DNA of 64,000 nt, taken from NCBI GenBank assembly GCA_028293565.1, contig JAQGON010000111.1:1-64000 (forward strand), in the 5' to 3' direction. The DNA is from Verrucomicrobiota bacterium (GTDB lineage Bacteria; Verrucomicrobiota; Verrucomicrobiia; Opitutales; Opitutaceae). The notes under the pieces were generated by a model. The model was not told where the DNA came from and did no database searches. It worked only from the letters and a program-made list of their open reading frames with translations. The position numbers and the translations under genes are program-made. Positions 42,295-57,200 of the stretch are shown in pieces. Each line of letters begins with the position of its first letter. Position 1 is the first letter of the stretch.

Positions 42295-42372
42295 ATTCAC
42301 CACAAAGGGTGCAAAGAGCGCGAAGGCCCCAAGCCGGAGATGGATCGAGCTTTGCGTTCTTCGCGGTGAACC
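42295..42372. repeat. dispersed hairpin repeat C, copy 3
   Basis: TTCACCACAAAGGGTGCAAAGAGCG is matched, less perfectly, by CTTTGCGTTCTTCGCGGTGAA about 45 bases later. It lies between the divergent SDR and enolase-superfamily genes. Confidence 0.65.
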
Positions 42373-42449: not shown

Positions 42450-43523
42450 ATGAAGATTGTCGCCGTTCATGCGTACACGATCCGCACGAAGACCAAGGTG
42501 CCCTTTGTATGGCGCCGCGGACTGCTCGGCACCGATCCCAGTTCGGAGCAGACGTGGCTCCGGCTCGTGACCGACGCCGGCATCGAGGGCTGGGGCCGCG
42601 CGCCCCGCGGCGCGATCGCGCTCGATCTCGTCGAGCGCCGGATCAAGCCATGGCTGCTCGGAAAAAATCCGCTGATGAAGGAACTCCTCTGGCACGAGCT
42701 GTGGGAAATCGACCGGATCGAGGAGTTCCCGATGTACATGATGGGGCTCGTCGATTCCGCGCTGTGGGACATCACCGCCAAGCTCGCGCAGATCCCGCTC
42801 TATCAGCTGCTCGGGGGCTACCGGGAAAAAATCGCGGCGTACGCGAGCACGGTGACGTATGCGACGACGAAGGAATACCTCGACGTGGCCGACCAGTGCC
42901 TGGCCCGCGGGTTCCGCGCGATCAAGCTCCACGCGTGGGGCGACGCGCGCAAGGACGCCGCGTTGTGCGCCGCCCTGCGAAGGCACGTCGGCCCCGACAT
43001 CGCGCTGATGTACGACGGCTCCGCCGGCTTCGATCCGTATGAGTCGCTCTCCCTCGGCCGCGCGCTCGAGGACGCCGGCTACCTTTGGTACGAGGAGCCG
43101 ATGCGCGAGTTTAGCATCAACGCGTACCGGCGGCTCTGCGAGCAACTCGACATTCCCGTGCTCGCGGCCGAGACCTCCGACGGATGCCACTTCAACGTCG
43201 CGGACTTCATCGTGCAGGGCGCAGCCGACATGGTCCGCACCAGCTATCATTACAAGGGCGGCATCACCGGCGGCCTGCGCGTCGCGCACCTGGCCGATTC
43301 GTTCCAGCTGAGCGCGGAGGTCCACGGCATGGGCGTCGAGAACATCCATCTCTGCCTCGCGATCCGGAACAACCACTATTACGAGACGCTCGTGATGGGA
43401 AACCCCGTCGTGTTCGAATCCGCCGTCGACGCGCACGGCTGCGTCCACGCGCCGAAAGGGCCGGGACTGGGATTCGACATCAGCCTGAAGGCCCTGGAAA
43501 AAACCGCGGTCGCAAAAATTTGA
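42450..43523 (+). CDS. mandelate racemase-type acid-sugar dehydratase candidate
   Basis: A protein of 357 residues from ATG MKIVAVHAYTIRTKTKVPF; the longer track ORF runs antisense to the SDR gene. Enolase-superfamily positions: AIKLHAWGD near 160 (Lys-x-His in place of Lys-x-Lys), YDGSAGF near 190 (Asp), WYEEPM near 215 (Glu), LAAETSDG near 240 (Glu), and EVHGMGVENIH near 290, where the His corresponds to the general base of the mandelate racemase group. This set is typical of acid-sugar dehydratases such as those for L-fuconate, rhamnonate or galactarate. It is divergent from the SDR/AKR pair, which suggests one non-phosphorylating sugar pathway. Confidence 0.85.
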   Translation: MKIVAVHAYTIRTKTKVPFVWRRGLLGTDPSSEQTWLRLVTDAGIEGWGRAPRGAIALDLVERRIKPWLLGKNPLMKELLWHELWEIDRIEEFPMYMMGLVDSALWDITAKLAQIPLYQLLGGYREKIAAYASTVTYATTKEYLDVADQCLARGFRAIKLHAWGDARKDAALCAALRRHVGPDIALMYDGSAGFDPYESLSLGRALEDAGYLWYEEPMREFSINAYRRLCEQLDIPVLAAETSDGCHFNVADFIVQGAADMVRTSYHYKGGITGGLRVAHLADSFQLSAEVHGMGVENIHLCLAIRNNHYYETLVMGNPVVFESAVDAHGCVHAPKGPGLGFDISLKALEKTAVAKI

Positions 43524-43551: not shown

Positions 43552-43641
43552 ATTCACCACAAAGGGCGCGAAGCCCGCGAAGGTTCGGACCAATTCTTCC
43601 GGGGATCGACCTTTGCGTGCTTCGCGCCCTTTGCGGTGAAA
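43552..43641. repeat. dispersed hairpin repeat C, copy 4
   Basis: TTCACCACAAAGGGCGCGAAG and CTTCGCGCCCTTTGCGGTGAA are near-perfect reverse complements about 45 bases apart. It lies between convergent genes and may end transcription from both sides. Confidence 0.8.
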
Positions 43642-49245: not shown

Positions 49246-49896
49246 ATGAAAATCGGCATTCTCGGATTCGGATCGGCACTGCTCCTGGCGGCGGCCGGAT
49301 GCTCGAACGCCTATTATGGCGCGATGGAAAAATTCGGCTTTGCGAAGCGCGAGATCCTCGTCGACCGCGTGGAGGCCACGCGCAAGGCGCAGACGCAGGC
49401 CAAGGAGCAATTTGCGAGCGCGCTGGAGCATTTCCTCGCCGTGACGCATGCCGACGGCGGCGATCTCCAAAAAAAATACGATGAGCTCAACCGCGAGTTC
49501 CAGCGCAGCGAGGAGCAGGCCAAGGAGGTCCGCTCGCGCATCGCCGCGGTGGAGGACGTCGCGGACGCCCTCTTCCGCGAGTGGCAGCAGGAGTTGAAGC
49601 AGTACACCAGCGCCCCCCTGCGGAACGAAAGCCAGCGCCAGCTGGATTCCACGCGCCGGCGCTACGACACGCTCATCCGCCTGATGCGCCGCGCCGCCGA
49701 CCGGATGGATCCCGTGCTGGGTGCGTTCCGCGACCAGGTCCTGTTCCTCAAGCACAACCTCAACGCGCGCGCCCTCGCGTCGCTCGACTCGACGAAGGCC
49801 TCCCTCGAGGCCGACATCTCCCGCTTGATTTCCGACATGGAAGCCTCGATCCGCGAGGCCGAGAGTTTCATCAGGGCCATGCCCAAGGATCCGTAA
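49246..49896 (+). CDS. DUF2959 lipoprotein
   Basis: A protein of 216 residues from the ATG MKIGILGFGSALLLAAAGCSN. This start gives a lipobox AAGC, so it is likely lipid-anchored. The sequence matches the DUF2959 family over its length: YYGAMEKFGFAKREILVDRVEATRKAQTQAKEQFASALEHF, GGDLQKKYDELN, RIAAVEDVADALFREWQQELKQY, and FRDQVLFLKHNLNARALASL. It is almost entirely helical, with long charged coiled coils. Function of the family is unknown. The longer track ORF runs through repeat B and is rejected. Confidence 0.92.
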   Translation: MKIGILGFGSALLLAAAGCSNAYYGAMEKFGFAKREILVDRVEATRKAQTQAKEQFASALEHFLAVTHADGGDLQKKYDELNREFQRSEEQAKEVRSRIAAVEDVADALFREWQQELKQYTSAPLRNESQRQLDSTRRRYDTLIRLMRRAADRMDPVLGAFRDQVLFLKHNLNARALASLDSTKASLEADISRLISDMEASIREAESFIRAMPKDP

Positions 49897-49913
49897 GATT
49901 TTCGCGAAGCCCG

Positions 49914-51038
49914 CTACTCCAACCAATCCGAGTCGTCAAAATGCTCCGGATTCAACCCAAAGCCCGGCTGCCGCGGAAAATCGCGGTCGATGACCTCCAG
50001 CCTTCCTTCCGCACCAAACATCAGCGGATTTTTTATCACGTCGCGCTGGAGGAGATGCGTGCCGAAAGCGCCCTCCTGAGCCGTTAGTCCGCGATGTTGG
50101 CTTGCTTGGGCGAGTGTGAGCGCCGCGCGGGTCAGCACGCTCGTTTCGCCAACCTGGCAGCCGACGATAAAGGGGATGCCTTCAGCGTGAGCGCGCTCCA
50201 TCACCGCCAGCGATCGCAGCAAGCCGCCGAGTTTTGAAATCCGAAGATTGAGGATCCAGCGGCCCGGATGGAATTTCAAATGATCGAACTGCGCCAGCTG
50301 GAGGAAGCTCTCGTCCAGGATAATGCGGGCCGGGAGTGAATCGGCGAGCACGCCCAGTTCGGCATAACGTCTGGGCGCCAGCGGCTCCTCCACGGCAAAA
50401 AACGGCGTCTCGAGTTTCCTTAAATAGTCCAAAGCGGCCTGCGGATCTTTCCAAAGATTGTTCGCATCGAATCGAAGGGCATCGATCGACTCTTTGTCCG
50501 CCGCCAAAATTGCCATGCGCGCCGAGTCCGTCTCGGGATTTCCGCAGAGCTTCACCTTGAAGTCCCTGAAATCCATCGACCGGAACCGCTGCAGGTTCGC
50601 CTTGAAGGTGTTTGGCTCCTCCGCTCCGAGCACCGCGCTGTAACGAAAGGGCCCGGAAATGGAGGGCAACGAGAGGAGGTCTTCCACCGAGCGTCCCGCA
50701 TCGCGGGCCAAAACATCCAGGAGCGCCAACTCGACCGCGCACCACGCCGAGGGATTCGCATCGATCAGGTCGCGTTGCGCATCCACCCACGCCCTCAACT
50801 CGCCAAGGCTTCCGATCCGGAGGACGTCAGGCTGGACGCGGCGGACAAATTCCAGCGCGGTCGCAACCGTTTCCCCCGTGACATATTCGCGCGGGCATCC
50901 TTCGCCGAATCCCCGCGCGCCACTTTCCGATTCCGCCTCCACCCAAATCGTCTCCGTCCTGCTCCGCGCCGCGGCCGCGTGCGTGAAAGTCCCCCTGAAT
51001 GGAATCCGCAGCGACCACGCCCGAAGCTGGCGGATCAC
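49914..51038 (-). CDS. enolase-superfamily protein, dipeptide-epimerase/muconate-cycloisomerase type
   Basis: A 374-residue protein with GTG start that overlaps the GH3 gene's stop (GTGA). Key positions: FKVKLCGN near 160 (Lys-x-Lys), RFDANNLW near 190 (Asp), VEEPLAPRR near 215 (Glu), ILDESF near 240 (Asp) and LRISKLGGLLRS near 265 (second Lys). This two-Lys arrangement marks the muconate lactonizing enzyme subgroup, which includes o-succinylbenzoate synthase, N-acylamino-acid racemase and dipeptide epimerases. Third gene of the operon hydroxylase, GH3, enolase. With a GH3 amide synthetase beside it, an N-acyl-amino-acid racemase-like or epimerase-like role is tempting, but not shown. Confidence 0.85.
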   Translation of the reverse strand: MIRQLRAWSLRIPFRGTFTHAAAARSRTETIWVEAESESGARGFGEGCPREYVTGETVATALEFVRRVQPDVLRIGSLGELRAWVDAQRDLIDANPSAWCAVELALLDVLARDAGRSVEDLLSLPSISGPFRYSAVLGAEEPNTFKANLQRFRSMDFRDFKVKLCGNPETDSARMAILAADKESIDALRFDANNLWKDPQAALDYLRKLETPFFAVEEPLAPRRYAELGVLADSLPARIILDESFLQLAQFDHLKFHPGRWILNLRISKLGGLLRSLAVMERAHAEGIPFIVGCQVGETSVLTRAALTLAQASQHRGLTAQEGAFGTHLLQRDVIKNPLMFGAEGRLEVIDRDFPRQPGFGLNPEHFDDSDWLE

Positions 51039-52699
51039 GGGAGGGGATCGACCTGCGCGTCGAAGTCGAAGGTCACCTTTTCCAGCGACTGCAGCCGCAG
51101 GAATTTGAATTGCGCCTCGCGCTGCCCCTGCGCCAGCAAGTGTGCCTTGAACGACTCGCCGGCGCCGGGCCGAAGCCTCTTCAGCTCGATCGGGTGCAAC
51201 CGCCCGCTCTCCCGCTTTGCCTTGTACTCGAGGTTTCGGGCGAAAATTTCCGCTTCGAATGCGTTCAGAAAAGCGTCTTCCGCGATGCCTTCCGCCTCGA
51301 GGTAGAAGACGTAACGCTGGCGGGCCGGGTCAGCAATCATCACAAAAAACGCGGGATGCCACGACCGGCCCGAGACCGAAGCGTCGACCGCATCGCAGAC
51401 CTGGCTCTCGTAAAGTTTTTCCCCGGTGATGTTCGTCGCCCCGGTCCCTTTCTCGAGGAACTTGATCGTCGGCGTATTTCCGTGACGCACGCCTGCCATC
51501 ACGATGTCGTTCATGAAGTACCGATAAAGGCCCGCAGGGGTGGTGATGATCACGTAATAGAGCCGACCGATTTCCAGGTGTTCAAGCGCACAGGTGCGAA
51601 CGCTGCCTGACTCCCAGGCGTCGCGCTCGATGAACTCGAAATAGTTCTCGTGCAGGGTCGGCACTTCAAGGTGGCGCAGTGAATCGACGGGAAGGCTCCC
51701 GCGGCACTCGCTCGAAAGATAACCCATTTCCAGGATCGGCATGCCGGGGGGCAATTGCCGCTGCAGCGCCGGCAGGAGCAGGCGGCAGCTGCCCTCGCGC
51801 CAGCAGGAAATCGCCTTCAATTTCGGCCAGAGGGCTGCCAGCGTGATCCGTTCGGGATTGATCGCCAGACGCTCGAGCACGCAGGCCCGGTCCTCGTTTT
51901 TTCCGAACGCCTGCTGCAGGACGCGGTGGGTCGCGGGGCCCAGCTGCTCCCGTCCTGGGAGCTGCCCGGTGCGGATCGCCGCAATGATCGATTCGATCCG
52001 AGCCGGGATGACTTCGGCGATTTTCAGGAAAGTCGACGGATTCGCGCCGGCAATATAACTGATCGAATCCTCGGCTGCGGCGAAGATCGCGATCAGAAGA
52101 TACTTTACCGCGGAATCGGCGCACTCAAACACCGCCGGCGGGATCACGTAGTTTCGCTGGAGCAACTTCGGCGTGCTCTGATAAATCAGGCCGGACATTG
52201 AACCGAAAGGTGTGCCCGAGGGGAGCCGGCCTTCGATGGCGGGACTGACAAAGGCCAGGGTTTTCCCGCTGAAGATGCCGGGCACTGCGGAATAATGACA
52301 GTATGAGAAAATCTCCTGGTTTCTCCGGTAACTGGCGATCGTGCTCGCGAGGAGCGGGATGTATTTCGGCTTGCCGGTGGTCCCGCTTGTCCGCGCATAC
52401 ATCACTGGCTGCTCCGCGACCAGATGCGGCGTTTTGTCCGCTTCCTGTTTTTCGATATACGGGCGCAGGTCTTCGTATGTCTGGATCGGAACCTTCGTCG
52501 CGTACTCCGCGGACCCGCCGATGCCGGCAAAGCCATGCGCGCGGCCAAACGCGGTATTCTCGTTCCGCCTAAGGATTGAACGCAGTGCTTGCTGCTGAAA
52601 GAAGGCTGGATCCTGCGTCCGGCGCACAAACGAAGCCCAGAGGGTGCGCCGAACCCAAGCCATGCGCAGCCGCACGAGCTGATTGAACAATCCGTTCAT
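51035..52699 (-). CDS. GH3-family acyl-adenylate (acyl-amide) synthetase
   Basis: A protein of 554 residues from the ATG MNGLFNQLVRLRMAWVRRT. It carries the GH3 family layout: DPAFFQQQALRSILRRNENTAFGRAHGF, VPIQTYEDLRPYIEK, the phosphate loop YARTSGTTGKPKYIPL near 105, later GYLSSECRG (as in the family's 'G.SE') and YYVIITTPAGLYRYFMNDIV. Plant members adenylate carboxylic acids such as jasmonate or indole acetate and join them to amino acids; bacterial homologues are little studied. Its ATG overlaps the stop of the hydroxylase gene as ATGA and its stop overlaps the enolase start, so the three enzymes are made together. Cytoplasmic. Confidence 0.9.
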   Translation of the reverse strand: MNGLFNQLVRLRMAWVRRTLWASFVRRTQDPAFFQQQALRSILRRNENTAFGRAHGFAGIGGSAEYATKVPIQTYEDLRPYIEKQEADKTPHLVAEQPVMYARTSGTTGKPKYIPLLASTIASYRRNQEIFSYCHYSAVPGIFSGKTLAFVSPAIEGRLPSGTPFGSMSGLIYQSTPKLLQRNYVIPPAVFECADSAVKYLLIAIFAAAEDSISYIAGANPSTFLKIAEVIPARIESIIAAIRTGQLPGREQLGPATHRVLQQAFGKNEDRACVLERLAINPERITLAALWPKLKAISCWREGSCRLLLPALQRQLPPGMPILEMGYLSSECRGSLPVDSLRHLEVPTLHENYFEFIERDAWESGSVRTCALEHLEIGRLYYVIITTPAGLYRYFMNDIVMAGVRHGNTPTIKFLEKGTGATNITGEKLYESQVCDAVDASVSGRSWHPAFFVMIADPARQRYVFYLEAEGIAEDAFLNAFEAEIFARNLEYKAKRESGRLHPIELKRLRPGAGESFKAHLLAQGQREAQFKFLRLQSLEKVTFDFDAQVDPLP

Positions 52700-54057
52700 T
52701 CCGCGGGCTGGTCGGCACCCTTGATGAACGGTGTCCGCATTTGGCGCAAAAAACTTCGCGGGTAATCGCGGTTTCTCAGCCCGAGTTGCCCGACCTCCCG
52801 GCCCCCCGGCAGGAAGAACGAGCCGAAGACCAGGTCCCACAGGATGATGTTATTCCCATAGTTCCGGTTCGATTCCCGCGATTCCCAGGAATGATGCCAG
52901 CGGTGCAGCTCCGGGCCCGCGAGCAGGTAGTTCATCCAGCCAAGGCGCAGCTCGACGTTGCTGTGCTGGAAGAATCCGTTGATCGAGTAACAGATGAAAT
53001 AAAGGGCGATGACCTCGGGCGAGACCCCCAGGATCATGAATGGCGCCGCATCGAGCAGAAACTGGAGCGATTTCTCAATGGGGTGAAAGCGCGCGACATT
53101 CACCCAGTAGAGCTTGTGGGGGGAATGGTGAACCGCGTGCAGCCGCCACAGCGCCGGACTCCACTCATGACTGGCCCGGTGCAGCCAGTACCGCATGAAA
53201 TCCACCAGCAGGATCATCAGGAGCGCCTGCATCAAGGGATGCAGCCCATGCGGCCAAAAGCCCTGCAGCACCACACCATTGGCCTGGAGCCAGCCGACTA
53301 CTTTGATCGTCACAAAAAAAGTCAGCATCTTCGGCAGCAAAATCTGCACGATCACCATGAAGGTCAGGTCGCTCCTGACCTCGTTTCCGCCCGGCTGCCA
53401 TTCCCCTCGATACGGATACCAGCGCTCTCCGCCCGCTATGGCGGCCGCCGCCAAGGCCAGCGGAACATATGTACTCGCCTGCAAACCGACCCCCTTGCCC
53501 AACAGAAAGAGATGAAGCCAAAGGCCAATGGCGATCACGATCGGGTAGGTCAGCCAAACCAGTGCTGTGCGGCCAGCCTGTGGAGGACTTCTGTCCGGAT
53601 TTCGGCCCTCGGAATTTAGGTAGTGATACATCCCCAAGGCGATGAGCCACCCGCTGAGCACCAGATGAAAGAACGCCGGAATCGGCGAGCCGAGGAACGG
53701 CTCGCGCTCCGCAAACGTCAGCGATGCGCCGAAGCGAAAAAGCATGAAGGAAAAATAAAACGCTCCCAGCGATAGGAGCATTTCCGCGGTCGCCCGTCGG
53801 GGGACCACCCGCCCGAGCGCGAGCCGCACATCCGTGACCACCATCGCGCCGAGGATCAACAGCTGGAGAAAAAGAAGCGTCTCATACGGGAGAACTCCGC
53901 TGTGCCAAGCGGTAAACGGCGGCAAAAAATCCACGGGTGAATATCTCTGTACCGCCTGCGCCGTGACCCGGAAGAAAAACCCCAACAGGAGAACCCAGTG
54001 CACGATCACGAGGGATGTTTCGCGCGGGCGTGGCCGCAAAAATAGGGGCAGAGTCAT
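52696..54057 (-). CDS. membrane fatty-acid hydroxylase/sterol desaturase family protein
   Basis: A 453-residue membrane protein with roughly ten hydrophobic segments. The C-terminal half has the diiron histidine clusters of the family: WLHRASHEWSPALWRLHAVHHSP near 290-310 and FFQHSNVEL, then GPELHRWHHSWESRESNRNYGNN near 385. It ends with VFGSFFLPGGREVGQLGL, common to the family. The N-terminal ~190 residues (SPVDFLPPFTAWHSGVLPYETLLFL) add an extra membrane domain of DoxX-like or unknown type. Members hydroxylate or desaturate acyl chains or sterols in the membrane. First gene of a three-gene operon, overlapping GH3 by ATGA. Confidence 0.9.
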   Translation of the reverse strand: MTLPLFLRPRPRETSLVIVHWVLLLGFFFRVTAQAVQRYSPVDFLPPFTAWHSGVLPYETLLFLQLLILGAMVVTDVRLALGRVVPRRATAEMLLSLGAFYFSFMLFRFGASLTFAEREPFLGSPIPAFFHLVLSGWLIALGMYHYLNSEGRNPDRSPPQAGRTALVWLTYPIVIAIGLWLHLFLLGKGVGLQASTYVPLALAAAAIAGGERWYPYRGEWQPGGNEVRSDLTFMVIVQILLPKMLTFFVTIKVVGWLQANGVVLQGFWPHGLHPLMQALLMILLVDFMRYWLHRASHEWSPALWRLHAVHHSPHKLYWVNVARFHPIEKSLQFLLDAAPFMILGVSPEVIALYFICYSINGFFQHSNVELRLGWMNYLLAGPELHRWHHSWESRESNRNYGNNIILWDLVFGSFFLPGGREVGQLGLRNRDYPRSFLRQMRTPFIKGADQPAE

Positions 54058-54221
54058 CGAATCCAGGAATTACGCTGGAGCGACCAGCACAATAGGCTCG
54101 CGCCCCCGATTCAAGTCCGGTCGCGCGTGTCGTGATTCATTGGTCATCCGGACACCGCAGCAAGACGCCACGGTTTTCCGGGCGCTCAGGATCACGGCAA
54201 GGGTGCGGTTTCAACCGCCAC

Positions 54222-57200
54222 TCACCCCGCCGTCCGCAGTTTCACGATCAGGTCCTTCGACTCCACGGTGTCCCCGATCGCCGCGTGCAGCTCGGCGACG
54301 ATTCCGTCGGCGGGGGCGTAGATCGTCGTCTGCATTTTCATCGCCTCCATCATGAAGAGCTTGTCGCCTTTCGCGACCTTCGCGCCGACCGAGGTGGAAA
54401 GGACGACGACCAGGCCCGGAATCGGCGCCGCGACTTGCAGCGGGTCGGCGAGGTCCGCCTTCGGCCGCGACTTCGCCGTGGCCGCCACCGTCTTGTCCTG
54501 GATGAAGACCTCCCGCGCGATGCCGTTCAGATCATAGGTCAGCGACCGGCGCCCATCCTTGTCCGCCTCGCCCACGCTCACGAGGCGGATGATGAGCATC
54601 TTGCCCTCCTCGATGCTGACGGAAATCTCCTCCCGCGACCTCAGGCCGTAGAAAAACGCGGGCGTCGGCAGCACGCTGACGTCGCCAAAGTCGCGCTGGT
54701 GCCGCGCGAAGTCCGCGAAGACCTGCGGATACATGAGATGAGAGTAGAACTCGTCGTCCGACGGCTCGCGGCGGAGTTTTTCCGCCAGCGCCTTTTTCAT
54801 GCCCGCGAGCTCCTCCGCCGCCGCCTTCGGGTCGGCGGCCGCGCGCGCGGATTTTTTCCTCGAGCGGGATTTTTCCGCGTCGATCGCCGACCGGTACTTG
54901 GCCTGCGCCTCGCGGAAGCGCTTCTCCCCGAGGATTGCGCGCCACACCGGCACCGGCCAGCCGCCGTCGGGCCAGCCGAGGCCGCCGGCCAGCATGTCGA
55001 TCACGCTTTCCGGGAACGGCGTCGCGCCGGGTTCGAGATTCACCACGTCCGCCGGCTTGATGCCGCGCGAGAAGAGGAACAGTGCCATGTCGCCGACGAC
55101 CTTGGACGACGGCGTGACCTTCACGATGTCGCCGAAAAGCTGGTTCACCTCCGCGTAGGCGCGCGCGATCTCGGGCCAGCGGTGCGAGACGCCCATCGAG
55201 GCCGCCTGCTCCTTGAGGTTCGTGTACTGCCCGCCCGGCATCTCGTGGAGGTAAACCTCGGCGCTTCCCGTCTTCGGCGCGGTGTCGAAGGGACGGTAAT
55301 ACTCGCGCACCTGCTCCCAGTAATCGGAAAACCGGTTGAGCGCCTCCAGGTCGAGGCCGGTGTCGCGCGGGGTGTGCTCGAGCGCGGCGACAACCGCGTT
55401 GAGGTTCGGCTGCGCGGTGCTGCCGGACATCGACGCCGTCGCGAGGTCGACCACGTCCACGCCGGCATCGGCGGCGCGCAGGACCGAAGCGGAGTTGATG
55501 CCGCTGGTGTCGTGCGTGTGAAAATGGATCGGCAGGCCGATCTCCTCCTTCAGCGTCTTCACGAGCTTGTGCGCGGCGTACGGCCGGCAGAGCCCGGCCA
55601 TGTCCTTGATCGCGATCATGTGCGCGCCCATCCGCTCGAGCTCGCGCGCCATCTTCACGTAATAGCCCAGCGTGAACTTGTCGCGCCGCCCGTCGAGGAT
55701 GTCGCCGGAATAGCAGAGCGCCGCCTCGCAGACCGCGTGGGTCTCCTGCACGGCGTCCATCGCCACGCGGAGGTTGGGCAGGTAGTTCAGCGAATCAAAG
55801 ATGCGGAAGATATCCATGCCGTTCGCCGCGGCGTGCTTCACGAAGCCGGCGACGACCGAGTCGGGATAATTGGTGTAGCCCACGGCGTTCGCGCCGCGGA
55901 AGAGCATCTGGAAGCAGATGTTCGGCACCCGCGCCCGCAGCGCCCGCAGCCGCTCCCACGGATCCTCGTTGAGGAAGCGCATCGCCGTGTCGAACGTCGC
56001 GCCGCCCCACATCTCCAGCGAGTAAAGCCCCGGCGCGCGCCGGGCGAGAAAGCCGGCGCAGGCAAGCAGGTCGTAGGTCCGCACGCGCGTCGCCATCAGC
56101 GACTGGTGCGCGTCGCGGAACGTGGTGTCGGTCACGAGCAGCCGCTTCTGCCGACGCGTCCAGTCGGCGAATTTTTTCGCGCCGAGCTCCAGCAGCAGGT
56201 CGCGCGTCCCGGGCGGCGGCGCGCCGCGGACGTCCGGCGCGGGCAGGGGCGCGGCCGGCAGCGGCTTGGCGGGGCGGTAGCCCTTCGCGTGCGGGTTGCC
56301 GTTGACGACCACGTTGCCGAGGAAGTTCAGCAGCTTCGTCGCCCGGTCGCGCCGGGGCTTGAAGGTGAACAGCTCGGGCGAGGTGTCGATCAGCGAGGTC
56401 GTGGCCTGGCCGGCGCGAAACAGCGGATGCGCGATAACGTTCTCGAGAAAAGGGATGTTGGTCTTCACCCCGCGGATCCGGAACTCGCTCAGGACGCGGC
56501 GCGCCCGGGCCAGCGCGATGTCGTAGCTCTGCCCGCTCGTGATCACCTTCACGAGCATCGAGTCGTAGTAGGGCGTGATCACCGCGCCGGAGTAACCCAT
56601 CCCGCCGTCGAGCCGCACCCCGAATCCTCCCGGCGACCGGTAGGCGACGATCCGCCCGTAATCGGGCACGAACTTGTTCTCGGGATCCTCCGTCGTGATC
56701 CGGCATTGGATCGCGTAGCCGTGGCACGGCACGTCCGCCTGCCGGGGCATGCCGACTTCCGGGGAATGCAGCGCATGGCCCTGCGCGATGAGGATCTGCG
56801 CGCGCACGAGGTCGAGGCCCGTGACCACCTCGGTCACGGTGTGCTCCACCTGGATGCGCGGGTTCATCTCGATGAAAAACCACTCGTGCCGGTCGAGGTC
56901 GTAGAGAAACTCGATCGTGCCGGCGTTGTCGTAGCGCACCTCGCGCGCCATGCGGGCCGCGGCGGCGCAGAGTTCCGCGATCACCGGCTTGGGCAGGCCG
57001 AAGCTGGGGGCGATTTCGACGACCTTCTGATGCCGGCGCTGCACGGAGCAGTCGCGTTCGTGAAGGTGGATGACGTTGCCGTGCTTGTCGCCGAGCACCT
57101 GGACCTCGATGTGCTTCGCGTTCGAGATGTATTTCTCGAGGAACACCGCCGGATTGCCGAACGCGCGCTCGGCCTCCGCCTGCGCCTCGTCGAGCAGCGC

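Follow-up and report, generated by a model that had tools for sequence, protein, structure and literature searches.

A three-gene operon in the window, by which we mean the whole 64,000-nucleotide stretch of verrucomicrobial DNA that was analysed, is reasonably likely to make a modified N-acyl amino acid lipid, an aminolipid, through the combined action of a GH3-family synthetase, a membrane hydroxylase and an enolase-superfamily enzyme; the window copy was probably gained horizontally. The best interpretation of the operon is as a pathway for an aminolipid or N-acyl amino acid, with chemistry related to that of OlsH and OlsE. The genes lie on the minus strand, in the order hydroxylase (54057-52696), GH3 (52699-51035) and enolase-family gene (51038-49914), and comprise the following features.

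53578..54057, minus strand: N-terminal membrane domain of the hydroxylase gene, about 160 amino acids, with four predicted helices
52696..53577, minus strand: OlsE-like membrane di-iron hydroxylase domain, residues 161-453 (Pfam FA_hydroxylase, E 1.2e-29)
52696..52699, minus strand: overlap of hydroxylase and GH3 genes, 4 bases, ATGA
51035..52699, minus strand: GH3-family ATP-dependent acyl-amide synthetase, 554 amino acids (Pfam, conserved motifs)
51035..51038, minus strand: overlap of GH3 and enolase-family genes, 4 bases, GTGA
49914..51038, minus strand: MLE-subgroup enolase-superfamily enzyme, 374 amino acids (Pfam MR_MLE_N/C, catalytic residues)

The sequence-only reading had described a tightly coupled operon with 4-base overlaps, encoding a membrane hydroxylase, a GH3 enzyme and an MLE-type enolase, and both the coordinates and the Pfam domains agree with it. 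The hydroxylase, of 453 amino acids, ends at 52696 within the ATGA that starts the GH3 gene at 52699, and the GH3 stop codon ends at 51035 within the GTGA that supplies the enolase start codon, a GTG at 51038. The longest GH3 reading frame, as called mechanically, has 601 amino acids and a GTG start; the ATG start giving 554 residues is preferred because it produces the overlap and equals the length of the 554-residue orthologue in locus L034. Pfam assigns FA_hydroxylase to the first protein, GH3 N, M and C domains to the second (N-domain E 4.3e-55) and MR_MLE_N/C to the third (MR_MLE_C E 5.9e-27).

The grouping of these genes is not a matter of chance, since the trio recurs in many phyla, mostly in the same order and with overlaps of -4 or -1. 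A first scan within the phylum, with GH3 as the query, found a match in 16 of 387 genomes, the window genome included, and an enolase relative adjoins it in four of the others. A second scan covered 84,980 species genomes and used as query an alignment of five GH3-adjacent enolases, with GH3 kept out of the query. It returned 80 loci, nearly all from metagenome-assembled genomes (MAGs) and including several groups of near-copies and many close relatives of one another; GH3 adjoins the enolase in 46 of these, and all three genes are present in 32. The carriers are labelled Verrucomicrobiota, Pseudomonadota, Actinomycetota (Acidimicrobiia), Bdellovibrionota, Bacteroidota, Myxococcota and Acidobacteriota, and the trio in like arrangement is common to at least seven phyla. 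Conservation of the order in relatives, on which the earlier proposal had been made to depend, is therefore observed.

In a tree of the enolases the window protein groups with those of L034 and L035 (support 98/94), inside a clade of 30 rows; of the other loci there, 25 have their upstream DNA intact, and every one of these carries the full set. Four loci depart from this (L035, L036, L047 and L050), and each of them starts at or within the operon, at a contig end. The closest operon is that of L034, a Verrucomicrobiales MAG, whose three proteins match at 61, 57 and 56% and whose genes overlap by 4 bases at each of the corresponding junctions; overlapping junctions of -4 or -1 are common among the operon loci. 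Between the trees of the three proteins, pairwise distances correlate at 0.74-0.89, a level reached by none of 1000 label permutations. This result speaks of co-inheritance rather than contact, and a single common species history would also give it. GH3 and the enolase also occur together without the hydroxylase, in groups that include Lentisphaerota, Kiritimatiellota and Phycisphaerae, which indicates that the enolase is independent of the O2-requiring hydroxylase step. The groups lacking the hydroxylase are largely anaerobic, as expected for a step that depends on O2.

Some of these loci have further neighbours. GH3 and the enolase are accompanied by a protein of about 450 amino acids, for which no Pfam family reaches its cut-off, in L023, L092, L094, L096, L098, L099 and L111, whose hosts are Lentisphaerota, Kiritimatiellota and Planctomycetota. 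In Acidimicrobiia (L051, L054, L055, L057 and others) the operon lies directly upstream of a ribosomal protein operon (L3, L2, S3), a neighbourhood that suggests long vertical inheritance in that class.

Bacterial GH3 homologues are widespread and mostly uncharacterised. The window protein falls within the GH3 acyl acid amido synthetase superfamily, as it has the N, M and C domains and retains the three nucleotide motifs (T104SGTT..PK112, S330E331 and G390LYRY..D398). Its best named model is OlsH (NF052613), matched in two partial stretches at 95.4 bits against a curated cut-off of 620, and full-length OlsH identity was rejected on that score. OlsH, described in 2025, uses ATP to join a free fatty acid to ornithine, giving N-acyl ornithine (J Biol Chem 2025, PMC12493201). 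In living E. coli OlsH yielded no product. The sequence-only reading knew of no described system with this set of genes; none was found for the trio, while OlsH provides the precedent for the bacterial GH3 enzyme (PMC12493201). Apart from that paper, nothing relevant on GH3 with an enolase, or on N-acyl amino acid clusters, emerged from literature searches that covered little of the subscription journals. By its open reading frames and Pfam matches, the window operon itself contains no OlsI-type alpha/beta-hydrolase O-acyltransferase. In L101, L104 and L112 the enolase has an alpha/beta hydrolase next to it, and in the Desulfoluna/Smithella group the two are fused. The window genome also has a second, divergent GH3 gene (contig C163:7506-8270, L032), without enolase or hydroxylase relatives nearby.

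The hydroxylase belongs to the FA_hydroxylase superfamily, having PF04116 and the histidine motifs HX3H, HX2HH and HX2HH. The eight histidines (H293, H297, H307, H310, H311, H385, H388 and H389) are invariant in 32 of 32 sequences. Its best NCBIfam model is OlsE (NF052566), at 165.1 bits against a curated cut-off of 475, with relatives at 180-205 bits; full-length OlsE identity was likewise rejected. OlsE hydroxylates the headgroup of ornithine lipids at C4 (PMC3972451 and a title cited in PMC11631085). The protein had earlier been taken for an acyl-chain hydroxylase, and of that claim the family assignment stands, whereas the closest named relative is a headgroup hydroxylase and not a typical acyl-chain type. 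The window hydroxylase is itself a fusion, in that its N-terminal 160 or so residues correspond to a separate gene of about 147 amino acids that follows the enolase in Gammaproteobacteria and Acidimicrobiia. The stand-alone form had no match in a Pfam search. A Foldseek search of the PDB with a confident model of the whole hydroxylase (pLDDT 90.5) turned up nothing below E 0.001, which leaves the N-terminal domain unassigned. In four other loci (L052, L068, L080 and L022) the hydroxylase and GH3 are fused in one open reading frame of about 823-848 amino acids.

The third protein is placed in the MLE subgroup by its complete constellation of KxK, D, E, D and K. The residues K161, K163, D191, E217 and D242 are found in 83 of 83 aligned rows, and the second lysine, K269, is present, as is K163, in all 49 rows linked to GH3. 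The family has invariants of its own in H20, R50, E298 and E322 (83 of 83 rows) and Y52 (82 rows). The best NCBIfam match, at 79.9 bits against a cut-off of 400, is the N-acetyl-D-Glu racemase DgcA, which at that score is a lead and not an assignment. The suggestion that the enzyme is o-succinylbenzoate synthase (MenC), with an incidental neighbourhood, appears scarcely credible: MenC belongs to the same subgroup and two MenC models match weakly, but they do so at 57.6 of 130.55 and 62.6 of 200.65 bits, the genome has a genuine MenC on contig C176 (217.6 bits) and MenB on C95, and the linkage of the enolase to GH3 extends across phyla. A match to this synthase had been named beforehand as a result that would count against the sequence-only reading, and MenC was rejected.

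It may also be asked whether the enolase acts upstream, racemising or epimerising a free amino acid or dipeptide that GH3 then acylates. The closest solved relatives are indeed dipeptide epimerases (best 3jva, 89.7 bits), but dipeptide-epimerase models score only 54 bits on the window enolase against a cut-off of 343. Dipeptide epimerases bind the free alpha-ammonium group through a DxD motif located where the barrel ends. This motif is missing from the window enolase, which reads A320-x-E322, the first Asp being replaced and E322 invariant. On this ground membership of the L-Ala-D/L-Glu (dipeptide) epimerases was rejected, and upstream action seems quite improbable. The proposed product had been either an N-acylated amino acid or a dipeptide lipid; the absence of DxD disfavours the dipeptide form and leaves the N-acyl amino acid type.

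Evidence on the substrate comes from the enzymes with which the enolase is partnered. At 17 deltaproteobacterial and spirochaete loci, from sulfate reducers, Smithella and a spirochaete, a gene encoding an enolase joined to an alpha/beta hydrolase is paired with a protein made up of PilZ and tandem-GNAT domains (L069:10048-12165, L062:5630-7867 and 15 more). The non-PilZ half was modelled (pLDDT 80.8) as a tandem-GNAT fold. Among solved structures it comes nearest to a histidine N-acyltransferase, the complex containing N-myristoyl histidine included (Z 12.9); N-myristoyltransferases come next, along with other GNAT proteins. Only this comparison of folds supports a predicted acyltransferase, and likeness of fold shows no function; an assignment as a FeeM-type N-acyl amino acid synthase found no sequence match in Pfam, NCBIfam or the PDB. 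These loci, which often lie beside GAF-HD or histidine-kinase genes, possibly encode a c-di-GMP-regulated N-acyl amino acid system. Six further loci have an LpxL-like acyltransferase upstream of the enolase, directly so in most. An ICMT/PEMT-type methyltransferase is found nearby in ten loci, and an LCM-type carboxyl methyltransferase in L108. Since its partners include amide-forming acyl enzymes with two unrelated folds, the most probable substrate of the enolase is the N-acyl amino acid itself.

What the enolase does to such a substrate is less firmly indicated. The presence of both lysines in every GH3-linked row suits epimerisation of the N-acyl amino acid, which we put slightly below an even chance; it is a candidate only, because half of the members without GH3 have lost one catalytic lysine. 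In 17 relatives, all in the GNAT/hydrolase group (L061-L089), K269 is replaced by Arg while every other family invariant is kept, and a two-base racemase is consequently unlikely in that group. If the enolase family has one reaction in common, it would be a one-base reaction. The enzyme might then be a lyase or cycloisomerase that dehydrates or cyclises a hydroxylated N-acyl amino acid, giving for example a dehydro-amino acid or a lactone. Such a role is in keeping with the hydroxylase adjoining the enolase in the window and with an MLE subgroup that includes cycloisomerases and cis-3-hydroxyproline dehydratase, whose model is weakly matched. Against it stand the K269 of all GH3-linked copies and the hydroxylase-less groups such as Lentisphaerota, in which enolase and GH3 occur together and a hydroxylated substrate is not required; on balance it is possible, if on the unlikely side. 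The operon might instead be a plain ornithine-lipid pathway of the OlsH and OlsE type, with 4-hydroxy-ornithine lipid as the product. These two are the best named-model matches, and the verrucomicrobial Akkermansia has ornithine lipids whose genes are unknown (PMC12710885). The scores nevertheless lie far below the equivalog cut-offs, OlsI is absent from the operon, ornithine-lipid synthesis as known involves no such enolase, and the OlsH paper anticipates that homologues outside planctomycetes use other amino acids (PMC12493201), all of which makes this an unlikely account.

The preferred pathway, to an N-acyl amino acid lipid with a modified headgroup, would begin with GH3, which would activate an acyl acid with ATP and couple it to an amino acid through the amine, the type of reaction that OlsH carries out with ornithine. 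The OlsE-like membrane di-iron hydroxylase would then hydroxylate the GH3 product, probably on the headgroup. Finally, the enolase would take from the N-acyl amino acid the proton at the carbon next to the carboxylate, leading most likely to epimerisation or, failing that, to a one-base elimination or cyclisation. We infer these steps and their order from homology and from the exchange of partners among loci; the gene order, its conservation, the fusions, the intact catalytic residues and the absence from congeners are observed. As the window operon lacks an O-acyltransferase (OlsI, OlsA), the product may be a single-chain (lyso) lipid or a signal and not a bilayer lipid.

The operon occupies a slot that varies among congeners. 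Its GH3 gene is absent from all 11 congeners searched. In congeners the flanks are conserved (GlyRS, DUF4202, DUF2959 and pyruvate carboxylase) and the gap holds other genes. The slot between DUF2959 and pyruvate carboxylase, at 49896-54222 in the window, is 1.5 kb in L122, where it contains a 429-residue protein without Pfam match, and 2.6 kb in L120, where it contains a different gene pair. The operon has a GC content of 0.605, compared with 0.655 in the window as a whole, and a third-position GC of 0.73-0.76, compared with 0.78-0.91 in neighbouring genes. Absence from the congeners together with the lower GC makes it probable that the window operon was gained by horizontal transfer. Elsewhere in the window, at 42450-43523 on the plus strand, there is a second enolase-superfamily gene (Pfam MR_MLE) in a different neighbourhood. 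A short intergenic repeat, CACCACAAAGGGCGCGAAG, occurs in three copies, one of them inverted (42298-42316, 43555-43573 and 43620-43638), where none would be expected by chance.

Beyond the window, there is about an even chance that these loci represent a widespread new aminolipid pathway, in which either GH3 or a tandem-GNAT partner supplies the N-acyl amino acid and the enolase alters its headgroup to a D-configured, dehydro or cyclised form. No description of an enolase-family step in an aminolipid pathway was found in the literature covered, and we know of no lipid substrate in the enolase superfamily. If correct, the proposal would place bacterial GH3 homologues in a defined pathway and provide the enolase superfamily with a lipid substrate; it would also predict that bacteria ranging from Verrucomicrobiota to Actinomycetota make a new modified aminolipid. 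Since the genes are three and small and the class of product is clear, lipidomics could test it directly.

Among known systems, the OlsH/OlsI pathway of Singulisphaera acidiphila (PMC12493201) resembles the proposed one in using a bacterial GH3-family enzyme for the amide-forming step of an aminolipid, and in both cases the GH3 gene sits in an operon with lipid-modifying enzymes. The OlsH operon, however, has the N-methyltransferase OlsG and the O-acyltransferase OlsI, with no hydroxylase or enolase described there (PMC12493201). OlsE of Rhizobium and Agrobacterium shares the eight-histidine motif with the window hydroxylase, residues 165-446 of which align over nearly the whole 293-residue model, but the window protein has an extra N-terminal membrane domain and is coupled to GH3, or in some relatives fused to it. 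The dipeptide epimerases and N-acylamino-acid racemases (3jva, 1jpm, 1r0m and DgcA) have the same fold as the window enolase and all six of its catalytic residues. In contrast to them, the window enolase lacks the DxD motif, has the family-specific H20, R50, Y52 and E322, scores far below every equivalog cut-off, and belongs to a family that is often partnered with amide-forming lipid enzymes.
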